DNA from: a virus
DNA: 36,422 nt
Virus record (IMG/VR): IMGVR_UViG_3300034106_005874
Coordinates: 1 to 36,422 of that record
Direction: 5' to 3' (one strand)
Of this stretch, positions 7,415 through 24,103 are shown piece after piece (position 1 is the first letter of the stretch; the number at the start of each line of letters is the position of its first letter). Made by a program: the position numbers and the translations under genes. A model generated the notes under the pieces. That model searched no databases, was not told the origin of the DNA, and worked only from the letters and a program-made list of their open reading frames with translations.

Positions 7415-8515
7415 CTAGGAACGCTTGCGGGGCTTGCGGCGGGGCTTGGGCGCCGCCCCCTTCGCCCCCTTCGCCGCCGGCAACAGCAACGGCCCACGGG
7501 GCTTAGCCGGAGCCTCCGCTTTCGCCTTACCCCTGCCGCCCTTGGCACCCTTGGCGGGTTTCGGCTTCGGGAGCTGAGCAAGCAAGCTGTCGCGCATCTG
7601 GGTCAGCCGGGCTAGATCCTTGGCGCGGCCGCCTGCATCTGGGTGGGCCCGCTTGGCGAGCTTGCGATAGGCCTGATTGATCTCGTCGCGGCTGGCACCG
7701 GGCTTCAGGTCAAATACATATCGTGCGCGAGAATTAGTGTGAATATCAATCCCGCGAAAAATACCAGGACCATTCCGCCGGTTGCGCTCCGATAGAGGCA
7801 CGCCCACCGTGTCCTTGTAGATCCTCTCCCAGTCACTGCGGGTTCGAGGTTGACGCCCTGATTCGGTTCCACCCTTGCCCTTGGTGGTAACCCCAGAACC
7901 CAATGCGTACAGGAGCTCAAACTCTTTCTTGCTCCTGATACCCCGCTCCCGCGCGTGCTTGCGCACCGCAGAACGCAACTCAGCCATGCTCATCGTCTCC
8001 ACCGCCTTGCCGTCCTGGAATCGCTTCCCGGCCACGGTGCCGCGGCGCTGAACCGCCGCTTTGATCCGCCGGGCTTTCTCCGCCCTGGTGGGCTTCGCGG
8101 GAGGCTTCGCTGGAGCTGGCGCAGGCTTGCCGGTCTTGCCCCGCTTGAATGCCACATCGAGGCGCTTGAGCTTCACCCTGCCGGTCTTCGTTGCTTCGCG
8201 CAGCTTGTTCCGCGCCTTGGTCACCGCACCCTTGCGGGCCCCCTTGGATCGCGTGCTTGCTGTGGTGTCCACCTCGGCTGCGGCGAGCTTGGCCCTGGCC
8301 GCCGATACCGCCCGCCGCTGCGGCACGAGACCACGGCGCTTAGGTGGCGGTGATCCCTTGCGCCTGGTGGGCGCCGAGGGCTTGGAGGTCGCCGAGGGCT
8401 TGGCTGGCCCCGAGGCCTTCGCGGTCCTCGCGGTCTTGGCCTTGCCGCCGCCAGAGCGAATCGTCCCACCAGAGGCGAAGCGTCCGCTGTTGTCTCGCTT
8501 GTAAGTGCGGGCCAT
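7415..8515 (-). CDS. MARTYKRD-family basic protein with DnaJ J-domain
   Basis: A 366-residue protein from the ATG at 8515. Residues 1-17 are MARTYKRDNSGRFASGG. Residues about 65-125 carry the module shared with the 1474-2211 protein (QRRAVSAARAKLAAAE, KGAVTKARNKL, VKLKRLDVAFKRGK). Residues about 264-315 form a J-domain: RYVFDLKPGASRDEINQAY, then KLAKRAHPDAGG with the invariant HPD at 291-293, then a helix-III-like segment KDLARLTQMRDSLLAQL. J-domains stimulate the ATPase of DnaK/Hsp70. The C-terminus is K/A/G/P-rich. It may recruit a host chaperone during assembly or after entry (inference). The DNA around 7705-7760 is locally AT-rich. Confidence 0.8.
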   Translation of the reverse strand: MARTYKRDNSGRFASGGTIRSGGGKAKTARTAKASGPAKPSATSKPSAPTRRKGSPPPKRRGLVPQRRAVSAARAKLAAAEVDTTASTRSKGARKGAVTKARNKLREATKTGRVKLKRLDVAFKRGKTGKPAPAPAKPPAKPTRAEKARRIKAAVQRRGTVAGKRFQDGKAVETMSMAELRSAVRKHARERGIRSKKEFELLYALGSGVTTKGKGGTESGRQPRTRSDWERIYKDTVGVPLSERNRRNGPGIFRGIDIHTNSRARYVFDLKPGASRDEINQAYRKLAKRAHPDAGGRAKDLARLTQMRDSLLAQLPKPKPAKGAKGGRGKAKAEAPAKPRGPLLLPAAKGAKGAAPKPRRKPRKRS

Positions 8516-8578: not shown

Positions 8579-9037
8579 ATGGCCACCCGCACCTACAAGC
8601 GCGATGCGAACGGTCGCTTTGCCGGTGGCGGTGGTGGCAGTAGCGGCAAGGGTCGCGGCGGAGCGAAGCCAGCCAAAGCGGCCAAGGCGAGCAAGCCGGC
8701 CAAGGCGAGCAAGGGCCGCCCCAAAGGTGCCAGCGGCGGCAAGACAGGCAGCAGCGTGAAGCAGAAGAAGGCAGCAGCTGAACAGGCCGCGCGGTCTGCG
8801 CAGTTCAAGGGCAAGGCGCCCGTCAGCAAGGCAAAGGCTGCTTACAAGGCGGCAAAGTCAAAGATGCGCGAGATCGCCATGCTCGCAGGTGGCAACCCCA
8901 GCGCCAAGGGCGTGAAGGGCCGGACGGATGCCTACGCTCAACGCAAGCGGGAGGAAGCAAAGGCTTATTCCGCTGCGAAGGCACGGGTGAAGCAGCTGGA
9001 GAAAACGCGAGGCGCGAAGGGCAGGAAGAAGCGCTGA
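8579..9037 (+). CDS. MARTYKRD-family small basic protein
   Basis: A 152-residue protein starting MATRTYKRDANGRFAGGGG, then low-complexity lysine/alanine/glycine (histone-tail-like KPAKAAKASKPAKASKG), then a helical part (VSKAKAAYKAAKSKMREIA, EAKAYSAAKARVKQLEK) and a basic end KGRKKR. Extremely basic, so DNA or RNA binding is likely. It is the only visible family member on the plus strand and is divergent from the J-domain member across the 8536-8553 palindrome. It converges with the small minus-strand gene that ends at 9038. Confidence 0.75.
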   Translation: MATRTYKRDANGRFAGGGGGSSGKGRGGAKPAKAAKASKPAKASKGRPKGASGGKTGSSVKQKKAAAEQAARSAQFKGKAPVSKAKAAYKAAKSKMREIAMLAGGNPSAKGVKGRTDAYAQRKREEAKAYSAAKARVKQLEKTRGAKGRKKR

Positions 9038-9818: not shown

Positions 9819-9825
9819 TTGAATC

Positions 9826-9847
9826 CACTTTGCCACGCATCGCCATG
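9826..9847 (+). repeat. Start-codon direct repeat A, copy 1
   Basis: A 22-bp sequence beginning CACTTTGCCACGCATC and ending in the ATG at 9845. It is identical to 10227-10248, which ends in the ATG at 10246. The two genes behind the copies are unrelated, so the repeat is not a coding duplication. Confidence 0.85.
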
Positions 9848-10225
9848 AAAAAGATTGATTTACGTGACTCCATTGGGCAAACCTTGACAGGATTTGCTTT
9901 TTCAGCCCGCGATCACATTTTTGTACTGGTCTTCAACCGTTGCCAGTGGCTTGCCTTGCGAGCCGTTGAGCCAGAAGCACGAGGTAGTGAGCTAGTGGAA
10001 GATATTGAACTGATACGCGAAGATCTTCCCGGCATGTTTCGCAATAAAGACCTGATCGATACTGGCCTTTTCTCAAGCGAAGAACTTCTGCAGATTCGGA
10101 GAAATGTCGCAGATAAACGGATTGCGATGACTGAGTATCGCGATCGAATGGAATATGAACGGCTTAAAGAGAAGTTTGACCGCAAGCGTCACCAAGCAAG
10201 TCCAGCTGACCAGTTCCACTCTTAA
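9845..10225 (+). CDS. Protein of unknown function between direct repeats
   Basis: A 126-residue protein. A TTG 15 nt upstream would add MPRIA, but those codons lie in the repeat shared with the next gene, so the ATG is chosen. N-terminal strands (LTGFAFSARDHIFVLVFNR) are followed by a long charged helix (YRDRMEYERLKEKFDRKRH). No family recognised. More AT-rich than the late genes. It appears to be a one-gene insert flanked by 22-bp repeats. Confidence 0.65.
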   Translation: MKKIDLRDSIGQTLTGFAFSARDHIFVLVFNRCQWLALRAVEPEARGSELVEDIELIREDLPGMFRNKDLIDTGLFSSEELLQIRRNVADKRIAMTEYRDRMEYERLKEKFDRKRHQASPADQFHS

Positions 10226-10226
10226 G

Positions 10227-10248
10227 CACTTTGCCACGCATCGCCATG
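10227..10248 (+). repeat. Start-codon direct repeat A, copy 2
   Basis: Identical to 9826-9847, 401 bp away; ends in the ATG at 10246 and begins right after the stop codon of the previous gene. Confidence 0.85.
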
Positions 10249-10785
10249 TCACCAAGCCCATTTCATGTCATCCACATCACGTCGGATAGCGCAACGATCC
10301 AACAAGATCCAGATTGGAAAGAAAACATCTTTAAGCTTTTAGATTCTGGTGTAGAGTGCCCGTTGATAATCAGAGACTCGCCTATTGATCAAAAATTTCT
10401 CAATCAACTACTTTCCCTTAAGGAAAGCCCCAAGTTCTGGAAAAAAGATTGGAAGGAGGGCTCTCCTGTCTACGCCTATCTTGAAGGCGGATGGAATCGC
10501 TTCACTGGGCGCGATACGTCTTACAAGCAAAACGCTGTCTACCTAGCAATAGACCCCATAGTTGATATTCTCCTTAAGCTTCACTACGGCAACGAGTTAT
10601 GGATGGCTGAAACCGAACTCAGAAAAGAAGCAAAACGAGCAAAGGAGGTAACCACTGAACTCGAAACAGCAAAAACCCGCATCGCAGAGCTCGAAGCCGA
10701 TCTAGCGGCAGCGCTGCGAAGCCTGAGGATGCTTGGGCAGGGCGGGGATCACTCAAACAACGGCACCGATTCCCCTAGCGACTGA
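10246..10785 (+). CDS. Protein of unknown function with C-terminal coiled coil
   Basis: A 179-residue protein (MSPSPFHVIHITSDSATIQ…NNGTDSPSD). The first 120 residues look globular. Residues about 125-165 (AETELRKEAKRAKEVTTEL, AKTRIAELEADLAAALRSL) form a clear heptad pattern, so it probably oligomerises. AT-rich relative to the late genes. Its 3' end overlaps the convergent MuF gene by 37 bp. Function unknown; an accessory (moron) gene by position. Confidence 0.65.
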   Translation: MSPSPFHVIHITSDSATIQQDPDWKENIFKLLDSGVECPLIIRDSPIDQKFLNQLLSLKESPKFWKKDWKEGSPVYAYLEGGWNRFTGRDTSYKQNAVYLAIDPIVDILLKLHYGNELWMAETELRKEAKRAKEVTTELETAKTRIAELEADLAAALRSLRMLGQGGDHSNNGTDSPSD

Positions 10786-14137: not shown

Positions 14138-14869
14138 TCAGCAGATCGGCCGCCAGCCGTATTCAGTGGAGGCAGGCAGGGCCAAGGGGTCACCAGGGCG
14201 ATGCTGAAGCCCCAGCTGGTGGGCAATCGCCCGGGTCGAGGCGCTGAGCACCGCGTCACGCCAGAGGATCGCGGCTTCTTCGCGGCTCCTGGCGTAGACC
14301 ACGATGCCACCCCAGGGCGCTACCCCCTGCGCTGCTGGGCTGAAGGCCTGATGTGGCTGCAGCGGAGCCTGCAGGGACTCCAGGAACCAGCCATCCATCC
14401 AGACGGCGAACGCTGGGGAGATCCAACGGGCAAGGTCCACAGCAAGGCGCGGGTGGATCCAGGTGCCACGGGCATGATTCGGGCCAGTCGTTACGGTGCT
14501 CACAAGGTCACCGCAGATCTGCGGTGACGCCTGCAGGGCTGCGATGTACTCCTTTGTGCGCTCCGCTCTGATGTAGGTGAACCACTCGCGGCCATTGGCC
14601 TGGCAGATCGCCGTGGCGTTGACGAACCCGTCAGCCTGCCGGCGCTCGATCGCGGTCCCGTTCCAGGTGCGGGCGTCGACGCCGAGCCCGCGACCGTCCA
14701 GCTGCTCCGGCGTGGTGGGCACGCCCGCCAGGGGAGTGGACTGGGTCAGGCGCTGGCGGTAGGCCTCTTGCTTGCAAGCGCTGCTGCAATAGCGGGCATT
14801 GGAGCCACGAGCGGCAAATGGCAGGCCGCAGGTGCTGCAGCTGAGCTGGTAGCGTTGTGTGCGCTTCAT
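14138..14869 (-). CDS. KilA-N domain protein with N-terminal zinc knuckle
   Basis: A 243-residue protein. Residues about 10-35 hold CSTCGLPFAARG…YCSSACKQ, a four-cysteine zinc site. Residues about 68-165 are a KilA-N domain: WNGTAIERRQADGFVNATA, ANGREWFTYIRAERTKEYI, then GTWIHPRLAVDLARWISPA and FAVWMDGWFLES. KilA-N is a DNA-binding fold in phage and viral regulatory proteins. The C-terminal 70 residues are unassigned. The gene overlaps its upstream neighbour by ATGA and probably belongs to the same transcript. Confidence 0.8.
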   Translation of the reverse strand: MKRTQRYQLSCSTCGLPFAARGSNARYCSSACKQEAYRQRLTQSTPLAGVPTTPEQLDGRGLGVDARTWNGTAIERRQADGFVNATAICQANGREWFTYIRAERTKEYIAALQASPQICGDLVSTVTTGPNHARGTWIHPRLAVDLARWISPAFAVWMDGWFLESLQAPLQPHQAFSPAAQGVAPWGGIVVYARSREEAAILWRDAVLSASTRAIAHQLGLQHRPGDPLALPASTEYGWRPIC

Positions 14870-15267: not shown

Positions 15268-16119
15268 TCATAGAGCCTGCGGTTGCGGATCCGCAACGGG
15301 AGACGCAACGGGCTCCCAGGTCAGCAACCCCAGCTGAGCCACCCGATCATCGAGCTCCCGCCGCACTCGCCGCTGACGCTTCACCTTCTCCACCTCAACC
15401 GCTTGCACATCGATGGCAAGGGCCAGCTGCAGCACCTCGATAGGCCGCCGGCCCTGCAGCAGGGTCTTGAGTCGCCGGTGGAACTGCTGCATGGGCCCCG
15501 ATGGGAACGCCAGCCGCCGCGGCTTCTCCCACCAGAGAAGGAGCTGATCGCGATCGCCGGGGTACAGCAGGGCCAAGGCCCGCAGCACCAAATCCCGCAG
15601 CGGCTGCAGCCGATCCAGTTCGGGCTCAGCGTCGCTCACCCCATCGGCGCCGATGTGGTCGTCCAGGTTGCTGGTGCCGGTCATCGCCCCCAGCATCTCC
15701 CGTAGTTCATCGAGGGTCATCCCGGCCCGTTCGGCGACCTCTTCGGCGGGCACGTCCGGATCGGCCATCAGGCGCTGGATCCTGCCCCACTGCTCGCGCC
15801 ACTTCGATGGGTATTTGATCATGTGCCCGTGATCCCGAAACCAGTGAAGGACCTCACCCATCACAAACGGCACCACTGCTGTTGAGAGCTTGTAAGGCTC
15901 ACCGGTCCCGGGGTTGATTCGTTCCGGGTTGTACTTGCGGCAACCACGGATCAACCCCAGATAAGCAACAGCCTCCAGTTCGTCGTACGGCTGGCCGGTT
16001 CTGTTCGCGTACCGGGTCGCCACCATCCGCGCCAGGCCAAGATTCTCGGTGATCAGCTCTTCACTGGTTGTAGTGGGCCGCGGGAACGGGGCCGCCGCCT
16101 GGCGCTTGGGGTTGGTCAT
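15268..16119 (-). CDS. Phage-encoded sigma-70-family factor (group 3-like)
   Basis: A 283-residue protein from the ATG at 16119. Residues about 20-95 are region 2: ITENLGLARMVATRYANR, YDELEAVAYLGLIRGCRKY and a MGEVLHWFRDHGHMIKYPS block that holds the -10 recognition part. Region 3 follows (VPAEEVAERAGMTLDELRE). A region-4 helix-turn-helix is not obvious; the C-terminus has QLALAIDVQAVEVEKVKRQ and a basic helix. The arrangement resembles cyanobacterial SigF/G-type factors. It probably directs polymerase to phage late promoters (inference). The gene has a terminator behind it. Confidence 0.8.
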   Translation of the reverse strand: MTNPKRQAAAPFPRPTTTSEELITENLGLARMVATRYANRTGQPYDELEAVAYLGLIRGCRKYNPERINPGTGEPYKLSTAVVPFVMGEVLHWFRDHGHMIKYPSKWREQWGRIQRLMADPDVPAEEVAERAGMTLDELREMLGAMTGTSNLDDHIGADGVSDAEPELDRLQPLRDLVLRALALLYPGDRDQLLLWWEKPRRLAFPSGPMQQFHRRLKTLLQGRRPIEVLQLALAIDVQAVEVEKVKRQRRVRRELDDRVAQLGLLTWEPVASPVADPQPQAL

Positions 16120-16180
16120 GGCGGGGAGGGCTCCAACCAAGCAGCGCCATCAGGCGCGGGGCAGCCGGGAGTTGCGGTGG

Positions 16181-17147: not shown

Positions 17148-18710
17148 CTACCGAAAGTCGACAGCGTTCCGGCGACGGGCCGGCGCAGGGGGATCCGCGC
17201 GGGCGCCGTGGCCGTAGTGGACTGTCGAGACGCGCATGGGGCCCGTGCCTTGCATGAAGTTGATCGCCTGGCTAAGCGCATCGACCTGGTCGTCGTAGGT
17301 GTCGCCGGGAAACTTCAGCAGCTGGCTGGTGAGCAGTGGCGTCAGCGGGTGGTGGCGCGGAAAGAACACACGCCCCTGGTTGAACTCAGGCGTTGCCGCG
17401 TTGGCCCTGGCTGTTTTCCCGCCAACGGGGTCAATCGCATGCACGATGAAGCCCGCGGCGGCACGCTGGAGGGTGCTGATCACGGCGCTGCCGTTCGCCT
17501 TGTCCTCCACCAGTAACTCCCCAAAGCCCCAAGTGGGCCAGAGCGTGGCGATCTGATCAGTCGTCGCGGCGAAGTCCAGCCGCGTGTTCGTCAGGTTCAG
17601 CAACCAGGCGCCGGCCGAGTCCTGACCCCAGAGCTGCATGGCCACCATGTCGGCGCCAGGGGAATCCTTGAAGCTGCAATCCAGGCTTGCGAGCTTGCGC
17701 ACGAACCGATCGGGCAGCACAGCGTCACCCTTCAGGCCAGGGCGCTCCCGGGTGCCGTAGAACCGGAACATTCCGGCGTTGAACACCGTGCCGCCATCGG
17801 GCTGGGGCCGCTGCTGGTAGAGGGCCGCCCAGTCACGCTCGGGGGTGTTGAGGCGCTGAATCCGAGCCCATTTTTCGTCGTAGCGGGTCGGATCGAGTGC
17901 TTCGCCCGGTTGCCGATCGTCAATCTCCCGGGTCACCAATGCCGGCAGGGGCTTAATGATCGGCTCGGCGATGATCGGCAGGCTGATCACATGCCAAGGC
18001 TCGGCTGCATCGCCGTTACCCTCGCGCTCGAGCTCCTCGACGGTCTTGAGCAACCAGCCGATCAGGTCGGCATCAACCCAGCGGGTGTGGGTGATGATCT
18101 TGATTGCCCCGGGTTCGACCCTGGTGTTGAGCACGTTGGACCACCAGCTATGAAGCTGTCGCCGGTAGGCCGCTGATTCGGCCTGCTCCCTGTTTTTGAT
18201 CGGGTCGTCGACGTTGATCACGTGAGCCGGCAGACCCGTGCCTTTGCCGACGCCAGCCCCCCACCAGCCGCCGATGCCCTGGGCTGTCTTCCACCTGCCC
18301 TTGCCCTGGCTGGAAGGCGACAGCACCCCACCAGAGGCGACGTAGTAATCACGGGCCGCTTCGCCGAACTCTTCTGCCAGTGCCTGAGTGTTGGCGCCCT
18401 GGCCCCAGGTGCGATCCGGGAACCGCCGGAGGAACCAACCGGACAGCAGCCGGGTGAAGATCGTGGTCTTGAAGTGCCGCGGCGGCAGCTCGATCATCAG
18501 CCGCGGCGGCAGATCGCCATCGATGACCCGCTGCCCGATGCTCACCAGTCGGGTGGTGTGCCGCGTCCAGGGGAACGCCGGACAGGCGTCGGTGATGTAG
18601 TCGCCGAACGACTTGGCGTAGAGCTCCTGGGCGGCTGGCGTGTTGTTCAACCGCTCCAGCTGTGCCCTCGCCAGGGCGGTAGCGATGGGGTTGGCGAGGG
18701 TGTGGGTCAT
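17148..18710 (-). CDS. terL: Terminase large subunit
   Basis: A 520-residue packaging motor. ATPase part: PPRHFKTT at 76-83 (variant Walker A), HVINVDDPIKN at about 163-173 (Walker B), and THTRWVDADLIGWLL as coupling motif. Nuclease part (RNase H fold): SLDCSFKD with Asp344, LLVEDKANG with Glu402/Asp403, and DTYDDQVDALSQA with Asp473/Asp474. It cuts concatemeric DNA and pumps it into the head. The ATG overlaps the stop of the methyltransferase gene by four bases. The order small subunit, two DNA-modifying or binding genes, large subunit is slightly unusual. Confidence 0.93.
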   Translation of the reverse strand: MTHTLANPIATALARAQLERLNNTPAAQELYAKSFGDYITDACPAFPWTRHTTRLVSIGQRVIDGDLPPRLMIELPPRHFKTTIFTRLLSGWFLRRFPDRTWGQGANTQALAEEFGEAARDYYVASGGVLSPSSQGKGRWKTAQGIGGWWGAGVGKGTGLPAHVINVDDPIKNREQAESAAYRRQLHSWWSNVLNTRVEPGAIKIITHTRWVDADLIGWLLKTVEELEREGNGDAAEPWHVISLPIIAEPIIKPLPALVTREIDDRQPGEALDPTRYDEKWARIQRLNTPERDWAALYQQRPQPDGGTVFNAGMFRFYGTRERPGLKGDAVLPDRFVRKLASLDCSFKDSPGADMVAMQLWGQDSAGAWLLNLTNTRLDFAATTDQIATLWPTWGFGELLVEDKANGSAVISTLQRAAAGFIVHAIDPVGGKTARANAATPEFNQGRVFFPRHHPLTPLLTSQLLKFPGDTYDDQVDALSQAINFMQGTGPMRVSTVHYGHGARADPPAPARRRNAVDFR

Positions 18711-18718
18711 GCGGCCCC
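18700..18718 (-). repeat. Start-codon direct repeat C, copy 1
   Basis: Minus strand GGGGCCGCATGACCCACAC, spanning the terL ATG. Identical to 19875-19893, which spans the methyltransferase ATG; offset 1175 bp. Both proteins therefore start MTHTL and both upstream proteins end in GAA. Confidence 0.85.
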
Positions 18719-19885
18719 CAGCGCCAGGCCGAGCTGGGCACCGTTGAGCCGGTGTTCAGCCATGGCGAAGTAAGCCGGATCGCGCTCAATGCCGATGGCC
18801 TGGAAGCCCTCGGACACGGCGGCTTTGATCGTGGTGCCGCTGCCCATGAACGGATCCAGCACGATCCCGCCAGGAGGGGTGACAAGGCGGCAGAGATAGG
18901 CCATCAGATCAAGGGGCTTGACGGTGGGATGGGTGACGCCTTGGCGCTCGGCGCGGGTGGCCTTGGTCGTATAAAAGAAGCGGGCGGCGCTGCCGGAGTC
19001 GCTGTAGCCAGGCTGCGCAGGTAGCACTGAGCCAGCGGCTACGCCATAGCGGATGTTCGTGGCTGGTTGAATTGTGTCTTTCTTGAATCCGTTAAATCCA
19101 GGCCGATCAGCCGGAAACAACCCCAGCACCTCGTCGCTGCCGTCGTGGATCAGGTTGGCGGGCCAGCGGCCGGAGGGGTGCTCAGGGTTGCGAACGTCTC
19201 CCATGCCTTGCCCGTAAATGGCATGGCTGTCTTGGTTCTGCTCGCTGACTGTCCCATCTTTCTTTTTCCAGGTTGACCACTGCCCCTCCACCCTGCACCC
19301 ATCCACATTCAGCGCCCCAGTGCCGTGCTCCAGCACGTTCGCGGCCACGGTGCCGGCCAGTGGCTTGCGGGCCATGGTGATCGGCTCCAGGGCGGGCTTT
19401 AGAGCTGTGCCCCAGCCTTGCCACTGGCGGCCTGCATCGGTGGCCGGTTCATCGAAGCGTGGCCTGCTGCTGCTGCTGCCGGTGTCCCAGTCGTCGCCGT
19501 ATCCGTTGCGCTGCACTTCACCCTGTCGCGTGCATTCGCGGCCCACTCCCGCGGCTTTGTCGATCGCCTTCGAGGCATCCAACGACTTCGGGAATCCCGA
19601 CCCGTAGACCCAAGCGATCATGTCCCGGATCTCGAAGCCCGCATCCTCAATCCGCACCGCCATCCGATGCTGCGTCCGCGTGCCAGCGAACGCCAGCAGA
19701 TGCCCGCCAGGCTTGAGCACCCGCAGGCACTCGGCCCAGATCTCCACGCTGGGCACGTCGTAATCCCACCGCTTGCCCATGAAGGCCAGCCCATAAGGCG
19801 GATCGGTCACTACCGAGTCCACACTGCAGTCCGGCATGGTGCGGAGGACGTCGAGGCAATCACCTAGGTGCAGTGTGTGGGTCAT
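18707..19885 (-). CDS. DNA adenine/cytosine-N4 methyltransferase (DPPY type)
   Basis: A 392-residue protein. Catalytic motif DPPY is at 28-31, near the N-terminus, and the AdoMet-binding motif LDPFMGSGTT is at about 343-352, preceded by HPTVKPLDLMAYL. This order (catalytic before cofactor motif) is the beta class. It transfers a methyl group from AdoMet to N6 of adenine or N4 of cytosine at a site that cannot be read from sequence. About 200 residues lie between the motifs, including the probable target-recognition part. No restriction enzyme is adjacent, so it probably protects phage DNA. It is bracketed by 19-bp start-junction repeats. Confidence 0.9.
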   Translation of the reverse strand: MTHTLHLGDCLDVLRTMPDCSVDSVVTDPPYGLAFMGKRWDYDVPSVEIWAECLRVLKPGGHLLAFAGTRTQHRMAVRIEDAGFEIRDMIAWVYGSGFPKSLDASKAIDKAAGVGRECTRQGEVQRNGYGDDWDTGSSSSRPRFDEPATDAGRQWQGWGTALKPALEPITMARKPLAGTVAANVLEHGTGALNVDGCRVEGQWSTWKKKDGTVSEQNQDSHAIYGQGMGDVRNPEHPSGRWPANLIHDGSDEVLGLFPADRPGFNGFKKDTIQPATNIRYGVAAGSVLPAQPGYSDSGSAARFFYTTKATRAERQGVTHPTVKPLDLMAYLCRLVTPPGGIVLDPFMGSGTTIKAAVSEGFQAIGIERDPAYFAMAEHRLNGAQLGLALGAA

Positions 19886-20579: not shown

Positions 20580-21038
20580 TCACCCAGCCCCCTCAACCTG
20601 CACCCCAATGCCCTGCGCCTGGATCCCCAGCAGCAGGCGCATGCGCTGGTCGTCGCTGAGACCCGCCCCATCGATGGCGGTGACCACCCCGGTCATTGCA
20701 CGCTGCACGGCGCGACGTTCGGCAGCGGCATCGCTCCAGTCTTCTCGGAAGAACGGCGAATGGGTCAGCAGCCAGGCGGCATCCCTGGGCTCACCGGTAG
20801 AGATTTTCTGGGTAAGAGCAATTTCCGCTTCATTCAGTGCACGATGAATGGCTTCCGAAAACCGTCGGAACAATAGCGGCGCGTCTTCTTGGTCGCCTTT
20901 CTTAAGCCAATCGCTGACGGTGGCTGGACGGACGCCGATGGCCCTAGCGATCGCCCGATAGGAAGCGCAGTTCCTGGCCACCTCTTCAACGACGGGGATC
21001 ATCTCCTCGGTCAGGGATGTCGGGCGGCCACCTGGCAC
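20580..21038 (-). CDS. Terminase small subunit-like DNA-binding protein
   Basis: A 152-residue protein starting GTG at 21038. Residues about 4-50 hold GRPTSLTEEMIPVVEEVAR and YRAIARAIGVRPATVSDWL, a helix-turn-helix; then FRRFSEAIHRALNEAEIAL and DAAWLLTHSPFFREDW, which recall small terminase proteins. It would bind the packaging site and load the large subunit. It is the first gene of the late arm, behind a promoter at 21065-21094. Confidence 0.7.
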   Translation of the reverse strand: MPGGRPTSLTEEMIPVVEEVARNCASYRAIARAIGVRPATVSDWLKKGDQEDAPLLFRRFSEAIHRALNEAEIALTQKISTGEPRDAAWLLTHSPFFREDWSDAAAERRAVQRAMTGVVTAIDGAGLSDDQRMRLLLGIQAQGIGVQVEGAG

Positions 21039-21094: not shown

Positions 21095-21119
21095 GCCCAA
21101 GGGCGACCCATGGCAGGGC

Positions 21120-21376
21120 GTTACAAGCGAAACAGGCGGTAACGCCAAGCGTAACGCCGGGATCCCTTGCGCTGCAGCTGATCTCACCCTCTTGTTACCA
21201 TGTTACATCTATAAAGAGAGAAATATATATATAGGGAGAAGGGGAAAACCGTTACTTCACGCGCGCGCACGCATATGGGTCTCCAAACCTGCGACCGTTA
21301 CAAAAAGCGAAACAACCCAGTCCCTGCAAGGGATCTGGGCTGTTACCACCGGTTACCTTGTAACAAAAACCGTAAC
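21120..21376. repeat. Cluster of 11 GTTAC/GTAAC elements (candidate origin or control site)
   Basis: GTTAC or GTAAC starts at 21120, 21139, 21151, 21194, 21202, 21251, 21297, 21342, 21352, 21360 and 21372; GTAACGCC occurs three times. One inverted pair is GTTAC-CTT-GTAAC (21352-21364). An AT-rich run lies at 21210-21232. The stretch 21095-21379 has no credible gene; the plus-strand frame through it is built of these repeats. Iteron-like repeats plus an AT-rich segment next to a primase-helicase gene fit a replication origin, but a regulator site is also possible. Confidence 0.6.
21302..21339 (-). terminator. Terminator of the primase operon
   Basis: Minus strand CCCAG-A-TCCCT, loop TGC, AGGGA-CTGGG, then TTGTTTCGCTTTTTG. 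A ten-pair stem with one bulge and a T-rich tail, 40 nt after the primase-helicase stop. Confidence 0.7.
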
Positions 21377-21379
21377 GCC

Positions 21380-24103
21380 TTATTCCCCGAAAACCCTGAT
21401 GGAGACTGACCTGCTCACTCCGGCGATGCCTTGAAACCGGGTTGGCCCCGCCTTCTCCGCCCCATCCAATCGCCCCAGCACGGTGCTCCAGCTGGCGCCC
21501 CAAGGCGTGTCGCGCAGGATGCCGCGGACGCCCTCTGCAGTGTTGGAGACCAGCAAGCGATCCCCGTCTACGCGGAACCCTAGCCGCCCCAGGTGGGCCA
21601 CGGCAGCGTCTGCCGGCACATCAGCCCGCTCGTTGCCGTTGCGCACGGCTTCCGCGAGCTCCCAGACCGATCTGGTGATGATCGTGCTGCGTGCGTTGAC
21701 CCTGGCCCCATCGACCACGATGCGCTCGACCTCGACGCGGGCCTGGTGCTGCAGCAGCTTCTGGAGGCAGCGCTGCTCATCGGACTGCTCAGCAGCTTCC
21801 CGATACGGCTCCCAGTCCTGCTCATTGATGAGCTGGAGGGCTTCGGCTTCGCTCGGCACGCGATCGTGCATCAGGCACCACGCGCCCGCCAGCAGGGTGC
21901 CGTACTGATCACCCTGCCGCTGGCTGCCGAGCCGCTTGGCCGCTGCGGAGCGAAACACGGCGACCGCATCGCGCACCACGGGGATGAGCCGCACCATGCG
22001 GGCCGCCAGAGCGTGGCCGATGCCTGGGGTGATCTCAGCCGTCAGCCGCTGATCCAGATCCCGCCAGTGGGCTTCCCGCTGCCCTGGCGGGAGAGTGGAA
22101 GGGTTCCGCATGGTGAGCTGGGCGAAGCGGCTTTCGTCGGCGCCGTGCTTCAGGGCTGGGTTGATGGAACAGAGCAGGAACATGGACCGGACCATGAACC
22201 GCTGCGCGATGCCATCGGCGCCGCCGCGCCCCACGAACCCACGGCTGGAGCTGGAGCTGACGCGGGCTAGCGCCAGGATTGACTGCATCCGCGTCCGGTC
22301 GCTCTGCTCATTGGACTCGGCTTCATCCATCACCACGGGCAGGGCATCGCAGCGCAGTTCCTGCCGCAAGCTGGCCTCGGTGCTGCTGCCCTCGGGCCAG
22401 AGCGCCAGATCCTCCAGCAGGGTGCCCAGAAACCGATCGAGGAGGGTGCTCTTGCCGCTCCCCTTCCCCGCGGTGAGCCACAGATGGGGCCTCCACATCA
22501 GCGCCCCACCGATCGGCGCCAATGCTGTCCAGCCCGCCAGGAGCAGGCCACTGGCCGGCACGTCCCAGAGGAACCCGCCAGCGATGGTGATGATCTCCGC
22601 GCCTTGCTCGGAGCTGAGCGGCACCACATCCGCCGGGAGCTCGATCGCTGCCAACCGCTGATATTTGAACCGCGACCCCGGCAGCTGGAGGGGCTGCTCA
22701 ACGCCATCGACCAACAGCCGATCGCCCAGGTGAAGGATCGACCGACCGTTGTCCCACCAGGCCCCGCGACCGCGGATCCGCCCCGGGTCGAAGATGCCGA
22801 CCTGATGCTGCAGGTGATAGAGGTGCGACGCGGCTTCGACGTAGTTGGGCCCCGATCGCCCACCCGGGAACTCCGCCTCCCACCACTGCAGGGGCGCGAG
22901 CATGTTCAGGTGAGCGGCGTTGTGGCTGGCCGCCGTGAGCCGCATCACCTGCCCGGTGTTGTGCGGCTGGTAGAAATACGACCCGTTGTCGAACCCCAGC
23001 AGATCGAAGGGGTATCGGGGTCGCTCCGGTCGCCCCGGCTCGCTGGCGGGGGGTTCCGGGGGCTTCGGCGGCTCTGGCGCCCCACCGCTCAGCACAGGCT
23101 GCGCCAACCGCCCCAGCTCCGCAGCGGCACGCTCCGGAGTCCAGCCGTCGCCGGCCGCATCGCCCAGATCCCATTTCGCGGGCACCCCCTCGGGAGGGAT
23201 GACCACCGCCACGGTGCAGCCCAGGCCCTGCAGGTGCTCCGCCAGCCACGCCATCACCGCGCGGCCGTCGCGGTCGTTGTCGGGCCAGAGGGTGCAGCTG
23301 CGGCCCGCCATGGCTGCCCAGTCGGTGTGTTGCTTGCCCTCTTTGCCGTGACACCAGGACACCACCACGTGATCGGGGAACAGGAGGGCCGCCCGGTTCG
23401 CGGTGCGCTCCCCCTCGACCACCAGCACCGGCGCATCAAGCGCTGCCAGCAGCTGGGGTAGCCGGTAGATCGGCCGTGGCGCGGGCCACTCGCTCGTGAA
23501 GTCGTCCCGCTTGCTGGGCCTGTGCCAGCGGCCATCGAGCCAGGTGCGATGGACGAAGATCTTGTCCGGCTTGCCCCCGGCCACCTTCGGCGGTCGTGAG
23601 ATCCGCTGGATCCAGAAGCTGGGGTTTTCCAGATCGGCGCCGTAGGGGTACTGCTCCTCAGCTCCCTCCAGCTCTGGCGGCGGAGTGCCAGCGGGTGGTG
23701 CTGTCGGGACCCGCGCGGGCTTGCGGGTGCGCTTGGCGGGAGCTGGAGCGCTGGGCCCTGGTGTCACCGGCTGAGCCGTGGCGACCAGCCCGCAGTAGGC
23801 CTCAGCTTTGGCCGCCGCCTCGGGGAACTCGCAGCCCAGCATCCGCATGAGCAGATCGGGGCCGTTGCCGCCGCCACCGGCGTTGTGCTTGCCGCCGCAC
23901 TGGTTGCAGTACCAGGCGCCCATGCCGTCGCTCTGGTCCCAGCGGAACCGATCAACGTTGCGGCCCTTGCCCTGAGCGATTCCGTTGCGGGTGCAGGCCG
24001 GGCATCCCTGCGCCTGGCCATTGAAAGCATGCGGCGGCAGGCCCGCCAGGGCGCTGAGGATCTCCGGCCATCGTCCGGCCGTGATCCGCTCCAGATTGCC
24101 CAC
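21380..24103 (-). CDS. Phage primase-helicase (zinc finger, TOPRIM, P-loop ATPase)
   Basis: A 907-residue protein. N-terminal zinc site CPAC (34-37) and CNQC (66-69) with GGGGNGPDLLMRM, as in primase zinc domains. TOPRIM part: VLVVEGERTANR (about 226-237, catalytic Glu) and LWPDNDRDG (272-280, metal-binding DxD). Residues about 360-430 (FDNGSYFYQPHNTGQVMRL, AAHLNMLAPLQWWEAEFPG) resemble DUF927. ATPase: GKGSGKST (546-553) and VVMDEAE (590-596). It should unwind the fork and make primers for lagging-strand synthesis. It follows a small DNA-binding gene and is transcribed toward the GTTAC cluster. Confidence 0.85.
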   Translation of the reverse strand: MGNLERITAGRWPEILSALAGLPPHAFNGQAQGCPACTRNGIAQGKGRNVDRFRWDQSDGMGAWYCNQCGGKHNAGGGGNGPDLLMRMLGCEFPEAAAKAEAYCGLVATAQPVTPGPSAPAPAKRTRKPARVPTAPPAGTPPPELEGAEEQYPYGADLENPSFWIQRISRPPKVAGGKPDKIFVHRTWLDGRWHRPSKRDDFTSEWPAPRPIYRLPQLLAALDAPVLVVEGERTANRAALLFPDHVVVSWCHGKEGKQHTDWAAMAGRSCTLWPDNDRDGRAVMAWLAEHLQGLGCTVAVVIPPEGVPAKWDLGDAAGDGWTPERAAAELGRLAQPVLSGGAPEPPKPPEPPASEPGRPERPRYPFDLLGFDNGSYFYQPHNTGQVMRLTAASHNAAHLNMLAPLQWWEAEFPGGRSGPNYVEAASHLYHLQHQVGIFDPGRIRGRGAWWDNGRSILHLGDRLLVDGVEQPLQLPGSRFKYQRLAAIELPADVVPLSSEQGAEIITIAGGFLWDVPASGLLLAGWTALAPIGGALMWRPHLWLTAGKGSGKSTLLDRFLGTLLEDLALWPEGSSTEASLRQELRCDALPVVMDEAESNEQSDRTRMQSILALARVSSSSSRGFVGRGGADGIAQRFMVRSMFLLCSINPALKHGADESRFAQLTMRNPSTLPPGQREAHWRDLDQRLTAEITPGIGHALAARMVRLIPVVRDAVAVFRSAAAKRLGSQRQGDQYGTLLAGAWCLMHDRVPSEAEALQLINEQDWEPYREAAEQSDEQRCLQKLLQHQARVEVERIVVDGARVNARSTIITRSVWELAEAVRNGNERADVPADAAVAHLGRLGFRVDGDRLLVSNTAEGVRGILRDTPWGASWSTVLGRLDGAEKAGPTRFQGIAGVSRSVSIRVFGE

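Follow-up and report, generated by a model that had tools for sequence, protein, structure and literature searches.

The region directly 3' of a phage primase-helicase gene carries an array of short repeated words that very probably functions as a replication origin, with the words serving as iterons that would be read by the C-terminal domain of the adjoining primase-helicase. The array is located in the window, that is, the whole stretch of DNA analyzed here (IMG/VR virus record IMGVR_UViG_3300034106_005874; 36,422 bases). Given that the word co-varies with residue 889 of the primase-helicase, this protein is the likely reader, and most likely the protein and its repeats evolve together as a pair. 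The origin function itself is suggested by the layout of the array and by analogy with SaPI Rep and SCC Cch2. Replication origin iterons were among the readings offered in the original prediction for this region, and this reading is well supported by the position and layout of the array, its AT-rich core, the co-variation with the primase-helicase and the parallel with the SaPI and SCC initiators. It has long been puzzling how the specificity of an initiator can shift in concert with that of a dozen dispersed sites, and the present family provides many natural states along with a near pair of relatives that differ by a single switch. The analysis also supplies a candidate origin for phages of picocyanobacteria and other hosts, a large group with poor annotation that includes the isolate S-H1, and suggests that phage origins can be found, and the word partly predicted, from the protein tail alone.

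The word array and its gene neighborhood

The window contains 28 copies of the pentamer GTTAC/GTAAC, against a shuffle mean of 16.5; 11 of these fall within positions 21120-21376, and the 17 copies elsewhere in the window are at background level. Resampling of positions 21100-21400 with a local first-order Markov model gave 0.75 copies on average and never more than 6 in 20,000 draws, so that the predicted excess over chance is real, and no 257-bp stretch of the window holds any other 5-mer at the density of GTAAC. The 11 intact words are the visible part of an array of approximately 280 bp that starts 3 bases past the primase stop codon. This place is kept in most relatives, which assigns the array to the primase side.

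Within the array (21120..21376, no strand assigned), two groups of words surround an AT-rich core, as in the relatives. The outer group, far from the primase gene (21120..21155), consists of GTTAC at 21120 and GTAAC at 21139 and 21151; the group adjoining the primase stop codon (21342..21376) has words at 21342, 21352, 21360 and 21372. The three copies of GTAACGCC that had been noted are located at 21139, 21151 and 21372, and the inverted word pairs are real as well. Two degenerate words, GAAAC at 21129..21133 and at 21309..21313, correspond to GTTAC in the relative L018, the former at the same aligned place; thus, the ancestral set probably comprised 13 words, with GTTTC (GAAAC) now in the window where the aligned L018 has GTTAC. 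A tandem word pair (GTAACATGGTAAC on the primase strand; 21194..21206, minus strand) lies beside the core and recurs in most relatives, for example, as GTAACAACGTAAC, GGGACAAACGGGAC or GTAAGAACGTAAG. The AT-rich core (21199..21240) is a candidate unwinding element of low GC content, and the AT-rich run of the original prediction is borne out by the 50-mer at 21184, which contains 28% GC, a lower value being found in only 11 of the 36,373 windows of this size. The remaining sub-elements are an alternating purine-pyrimidine run, CGCGCGCGCACGCATATG (21258..21279), which is recurrent in many relatives, and a hairpin-prone inverted repeat located between words, CCCAGTCCCTGCAAGGGATCTGGG (21316..21339), which recurs in relatives with changed sequence. 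The inter-word hairpin folds well in many although not all loci, and an array often has two of them; it may act as a signal for priming or termination.

The array sits between two genes that are both encoded on the minus strand, namely, the gene for the 907-aa primase-helicase, the proposed initiator (21380..24103; phrog_35358, E=5e-123, and phrog_510), and a terS-like gene (20580-21038; phrog_4102, E=2.4e-11) that begins about 80 bp from the array. Other genes in the window encode a regulator with a match to the KilA-N domain (14138-14869), a phage-encoded RNA polymerase sigma factor-like protein (15268-16140, minus strand; phrog_351, E=1.2e-25), an N6/N4 methyltransferase (18707-19885) and, near the array, a 64-aa protein which has no match in the library searched and, from its sequence, looks like a ribbon-helix-helix protein. 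Three otherwise different basic proteins (1474-2211 and 7415-8515 on the minus strand, and 8579-9037 on the plus strand) start with the same tag, (R)TYKRDxxGRFAxGG, which was found in only these three places in the six frames of the window and is possibly a shared targeting or packaging tag; the 7415-8515 protein also shows a weak DnaJ match. Two ORF starts, at 9821-9850 and 10222-10251, both beginning with LPRIAM, have a near-identical upstream stretch (CACTTTGCCACGCATCGCCATG), perhaps a duplicated regulatory element.

Conserved layout and diverse words in relatives

When the primase protein or its alignment was used as the query, 24, 80 and 64 loci were obtained, in overlapping sets, the 80 loci being drawn from 553 relatives in viral contigs; a search with L136 as the query yielded no new loci. 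The relatives that carry an array come from viral contigs, from Cyanobium and Synechococcus prophages, and from betaproteobacterial and other loci. Genomes of Cyanobium, Synechococcus and Vulcanococcus hold relatives with about 50% protein identity, which suggests that the window comes from a picocyanobacterial phage.

The conservation in related phages on which the original prediction had been staked was found, with words that are specific to each locus. The common layout consists of two word groups around an AT-rich stretch. Counted from the primase stop codon, the order is 3-5 words, a hairpin-prone stretch, 2 words, an alternating purine-pyrimidine or similar run, the AT-rich core, the tandem word pair, a second hairpin-prone stretch and another 3-5 words. 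An array has about 8-14 words. Most sites within one locus carry the same word. When oriented on the tandem pair, the words include GTAAC, GTTAC, GTCAC, GTGAC, GTAAG, GTCAG, GTTAG and GTGAG, as well as GGAAC, GGGAC, GGTAC, GCAAC, GTAGAC and GGTAAC; GTAAT and GTATG were found in loci fetched later. The isolate S-H1 (MK105819) has its array at about 17.68-17.97 kb, and its counterpart of the primase-helicase is filed as a hypothetical protein.

An array after the gene is absent from all four distant phage records (one from Bordetella, two from Pseudomonas and one from Serratia) and from 13 distant genome loci (L122, L126, L131-L134, L139-L143, L145, L146). Similarly, L035 and L036 have no array directly after the primase. 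These two loci contain 13 and 12 copies of GGGAC, respectively, in 300 bp about 1.2 kb past the primase gene, in agreement with their wing tail, KVRF; approximately 1.2 kb of other DNA (about 3325-4480 in L035, and likewise in L036) intervenes. Thus, gene and array need not be adjacent.

Co-variation of the protein tail with the word

The primase-helicase consists of an N-terminal half with a Zn-ribbon and a TOPRIM-like domain, an AAA+ helicase and a C-terminal domain; its matches to Zn_Ribbon_Prim and Toprim_3 are weak, under the Pfam cut-offs. The predicted structure of residues 355-907 has a pLDDT of 87.6. The best structural neighbor of this fragment is SCCmec Cch (5dgk_B; Z 14.2, rmsd 7.3, 418 aligned residues), with alignment ranges (6..553 and 4..549) that span nearly the whole fragment; MCM chains score up to Z 13.6, which amounts to a tie with Cch, and SaPI5 (7ola) reaches Z 12.4. 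The AAA+ helicase core accordingly shows the fold of Cch and SaPI Rep, with MCM close behind, and Foldseek, given the long fragment, listed viral and SaPI5 primase-helicases. The Pfam model DUF927 had no match at E<=1 in the window protein and the five relatives scanned, and the protein is therefore not filed under that family. The C-terminal domain, the proposed iteron-binding domain (residues 770-907; 21383..21796, minus strand), was also predicted alone (pLDDT 92.2). It has weak matches to the C-terminal part of SaPIbov1 Rep (8tch_A; Z 4.5 over 90 residues), Cch (5dgk_A; Z 3.9) and the winged helices of heat-shock factors (Z about 4), and Foldseek returned no match for the domain alone at E<=0.001. 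The domain ends in a beta-hairpin, or 'wing' (residues about 883-903; 21395..21457, minus strand; strands 529-535 and 542-549 of the fragment model). In the predicted model, the first strand of this hairpin ends with Arg889 (codon 21437..21439, minus strand).

The association between the tail and the word initially emerged from visual comparison of the first set of loci, where tails of the form '..RF.G..' accompany words ending in C, and '..HF' or '..YF' tails accompany words ending in G. Automated motif finding scored poorly and confused the registers of the words, so manual assignment was used; it covered 114 of 139 entries, namely, the window and 113 loci, and these were aligned and then reduced to 62 representatives. 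The 25 entries left out are L025, L033, L035, L036, L074, L092, L093, L094, L098, L122, L123, L126, L127, L131-L134, L139-L143 and L145-L147; nine loci in which the match lacks the end of the protein (L023, L024, L071, L114, L118, L124, L138, L144, L148) were never used. For prophage arrays that mix GTCAC and GTTAC and are weak by the automatic count (L069, L070, L076, L077, L095, L096, L100, L106, L107, L109, L116), the word was assigned by eye.

The rule that emerges is that words end in C where residue 889 is R or K, and in G or T where it is H, Y or W. Among the 62 representatives, column 889 has an MI/H of 1.00 with the last base, the best of 671 well-filled columns (the next one reaches 0.67), and it is the only column that fully explains this base, with 48 R and one K for C, and five H, seven Y and one W for G. 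For the second base of the word, the best column is 887 (MI/H 0.65), with K in 10 of the 14 GG-type cases, and columns 896 and 894 are also among the top seven. Among words ending in G, W goes with a following G (5 of 7 sites in L064, 4 of 7 in L191 and 6 of 7 in L164), and H or Y mostly with a following A, as in L165 (9 of 11 sites), which has the same GTATG word as L164. On a quick tree of 81 rows with some long branches, built from residues 355-860 so that the tail is left out, there are at least 29 word changes, at least six changes of the last base and six changes of the residue class; the independent last-base changes were matched by residue 889 in six of six pairs (p=0.031).

An automatic recount of the first set classified 103 of 137 usable entries as strong and 34 as weak. 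The strong arrays comprised 79 with R/K and C, 18 with H/Y/W and a base other than C, five with R/K and a base other than C (L040, L047, L054, L057, L147), in which the register is shifted and a longer word reaches a C, and one with H/Y/W and C (L067). The rule was then scored by script on a held-out set of 40 loci fetched afterwards, including S-H1. All 35 strong arrays, 23 with H/Y/W and G or T and 12 with R/K and C, followed the rule, a count that amounts to fewer than 35 independent tests since many of these loci are close to each other or to the first set (e.g., L155-L159, L179, L188), and that was obtained with the word alphabet widened from GNNA[CG] to GNN[AT]N after GTAAT and GTATG arrays had been seen. 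Of the five weak arrays, three agree with the rule, and L153 and L154 show no real array. In the narrow first pass, five loci had been against the rule: L153 and L154, L176 and L177 with weak words, and L161, which, like the calls for L173-L175 and L186, was due to the simple repeat GAGAG. Reading of the arrays identified GTAAT words in L173, L176 and L177, and GTATG words in L164 and L165.

Proposed origin function, alternative readings and the switching of words

The primase-helicase would work like an initiator of the SaPI Rep/Cch type that is equipped with a DnaG-type primase half. The C-terminal domains would bind both word groups, the AAA+ ring would load itself at the array, the AT-rich core would be opened, and the same protein would then prime. 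Specificity would reside largely in the last hairpin. Guanine is commonly contacted by arginine in protein-DNA complexes; R889 would contact the G that lies across from the final C of the word, and H, Y or W at this position would accept G or T instead. The GC-skew check that had been proposed gave no clear inflection at the array: the maximum in the window is at 19190 and the minimum at the end, and in S-H1, with the array at about 17.7-17.95 kb, they are at 8280 and 32945, respectively. The skew is thus uninformative for the origin reading in both.

The terS-like gene next to the array is compatible with a packaging (pac or cos) site read by the terminase small subunit, and terL is found within the examined flanks of 51 of 113 loci, so that packaging genes often are near. 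However, the word follows a residue of the primase, this type of terS is present within the examined flanks of only 19 of the 113 loci (a diverged terS would be missed), and in L035 and L036, where the array is parted from the primase, the word still fits the primase. We therefore consider this part of the original prediction highly improbable, although the array may have a secondary role in packaging. That the words are read by another phage protein, such as the 64-aa protein, the KilA-N protein or a partition protein, appears extremely unlikely: small DNA-binding proteins are indeed encoded nearby, but the 64-aa protein is present in only six of 113 loci (five of the 90 with more than 900 bp upstream), and a single primase column fully explains the last base. 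The partition-like site that had also been suggested is unsupported, no small binding protein being seen to travel with the array.

The co-variation reveals a reader, not what the reading does, and in the operon direction the array precedes the next gene; the C-terminal domain might act at the array chiefly as a transcriptional regulator of this next gene rather than in starting replication. This possibility seems very unlikely given the AT-rich core between the word groups, the presence of about a dozen sites, the helicase-primase nature of the reader and the differences among relatives in the sequence behind the array. The chance that the words are sites for a DnaA-like host factor or recognition sites of the nearby methyltransferase is close to negligible, considering that the methyltransferase is present in five of 113 loci and that a host-factor word is not expected to differ between near relatives such as L018 and L004.

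The origin reading is strengthened by comparison with the SaPI and SCC initiators. In SaPI origins, repeats flank an AT-rich stretch. As in the SaPI Rep/Cch type, a set of short repeats in the window follows immediately on the gene for the proposed initiator, and these repeats flank an AT-rich stretch. According to PMC7581432, the C-terminal domain of SaPI Rep acts on an origin with iterons that adjoins the downstream end of the rep gene, and that of SCC Cch2 binds AAGTG iterons after its gene. The SaPI proteins (SaPIbov1, SaPI5) would resemble the window protein as self-contained initiator helicases with a C-terminal domain and short downstream iterons, and SaPI5 Rep/PriRep1 and SaPIbov1 Rep turn up in the fold searches. 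Unlike SaPI Rep, which has an AEP primase, the window protein has a DnaG-type Zn-ribbon/TOPRIM-like primase half, and its family, found in phages and prophages of cyanobacteria and others, shows many natural words and a single-residue switch. For the helicase and C-terminal half, SCCmec Cch (DUF927) is the structure that matches best, although the proteins scanned here do not match DUF927, and the Cch2 site as described has three iterons (PMC7581432) compared with the 8-14 or so words here. In PLE satellites of Vibrio, the DNA-binding domain of the initiator RepA also co-varies with the origin and modules are swapped (PMC8263062, PMC7145576), and altered origins seem to be favored by the action of an origin-directed nuclease (PMC8263062); as described there, RepA belongs to the RepA_N family, with no predicted helicase or primase activity, and there are two origin types exchanged by module swap, in contrast to the many words reached here by single-base switching. 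In geminiviruses, short repeats in conserved places have diverse sequences matched to Rep (PMC12548392), but Rep is an unrelated rolling-circle protein, the iterons are upstream of the gene, and their identity was argued not to be essential for replication of the geminivirus tested (PMC12548392). The archaeal plasmid pRN1 encodes a replication protein, ORF904, with an essential sequence just downstream of its gene (PMC4234260), a resemblance drawn from the described arrangement.

With regard to how words change, it is possible, if somewhat less than an even chance, that the last hairpin is an evolvable reading head, such that single substitutions at residue 889, along with others at 887 and 894-896, retarget the protein, iterons convert singly by point mutation rather than by cassette swap, and related phages split into many private replication specificities. 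Private specificity among co-infecting phages would fit as the cause of word switching, the pressure perhaps coming from competing phages, satellites or origin-directed nucleases. An example of word change is the pair of near relatives L018 (GTAAC, R) and L004 (GTAAG, H), whose arrays can be aligned with four gap columns. Of the 13 words, 11 have a different last base (10 changed to G and one to A), compared with none of 52 at the other four word positions and 29 of 218 in the spacers (Fisher 7e-8 for the switched base versus spacer), which looks like site-by-site conversion by point mutation; for more distant word pairs, poor alignment between words makes such counts weaker. L067 has a chimeric array: to the left of the core, on the primase side, the words (+17 to +84) are GTGAG, and to the right (+172 to +256) they are GTTAC. 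The primase-side half fits the Y residue of this protein, and L067 was scored by that half, the right half making it an exception to the rule. L067 is apparently a recombinant origin, so that L004 and L067 would be snapshots of two routes, mutation and recombination.
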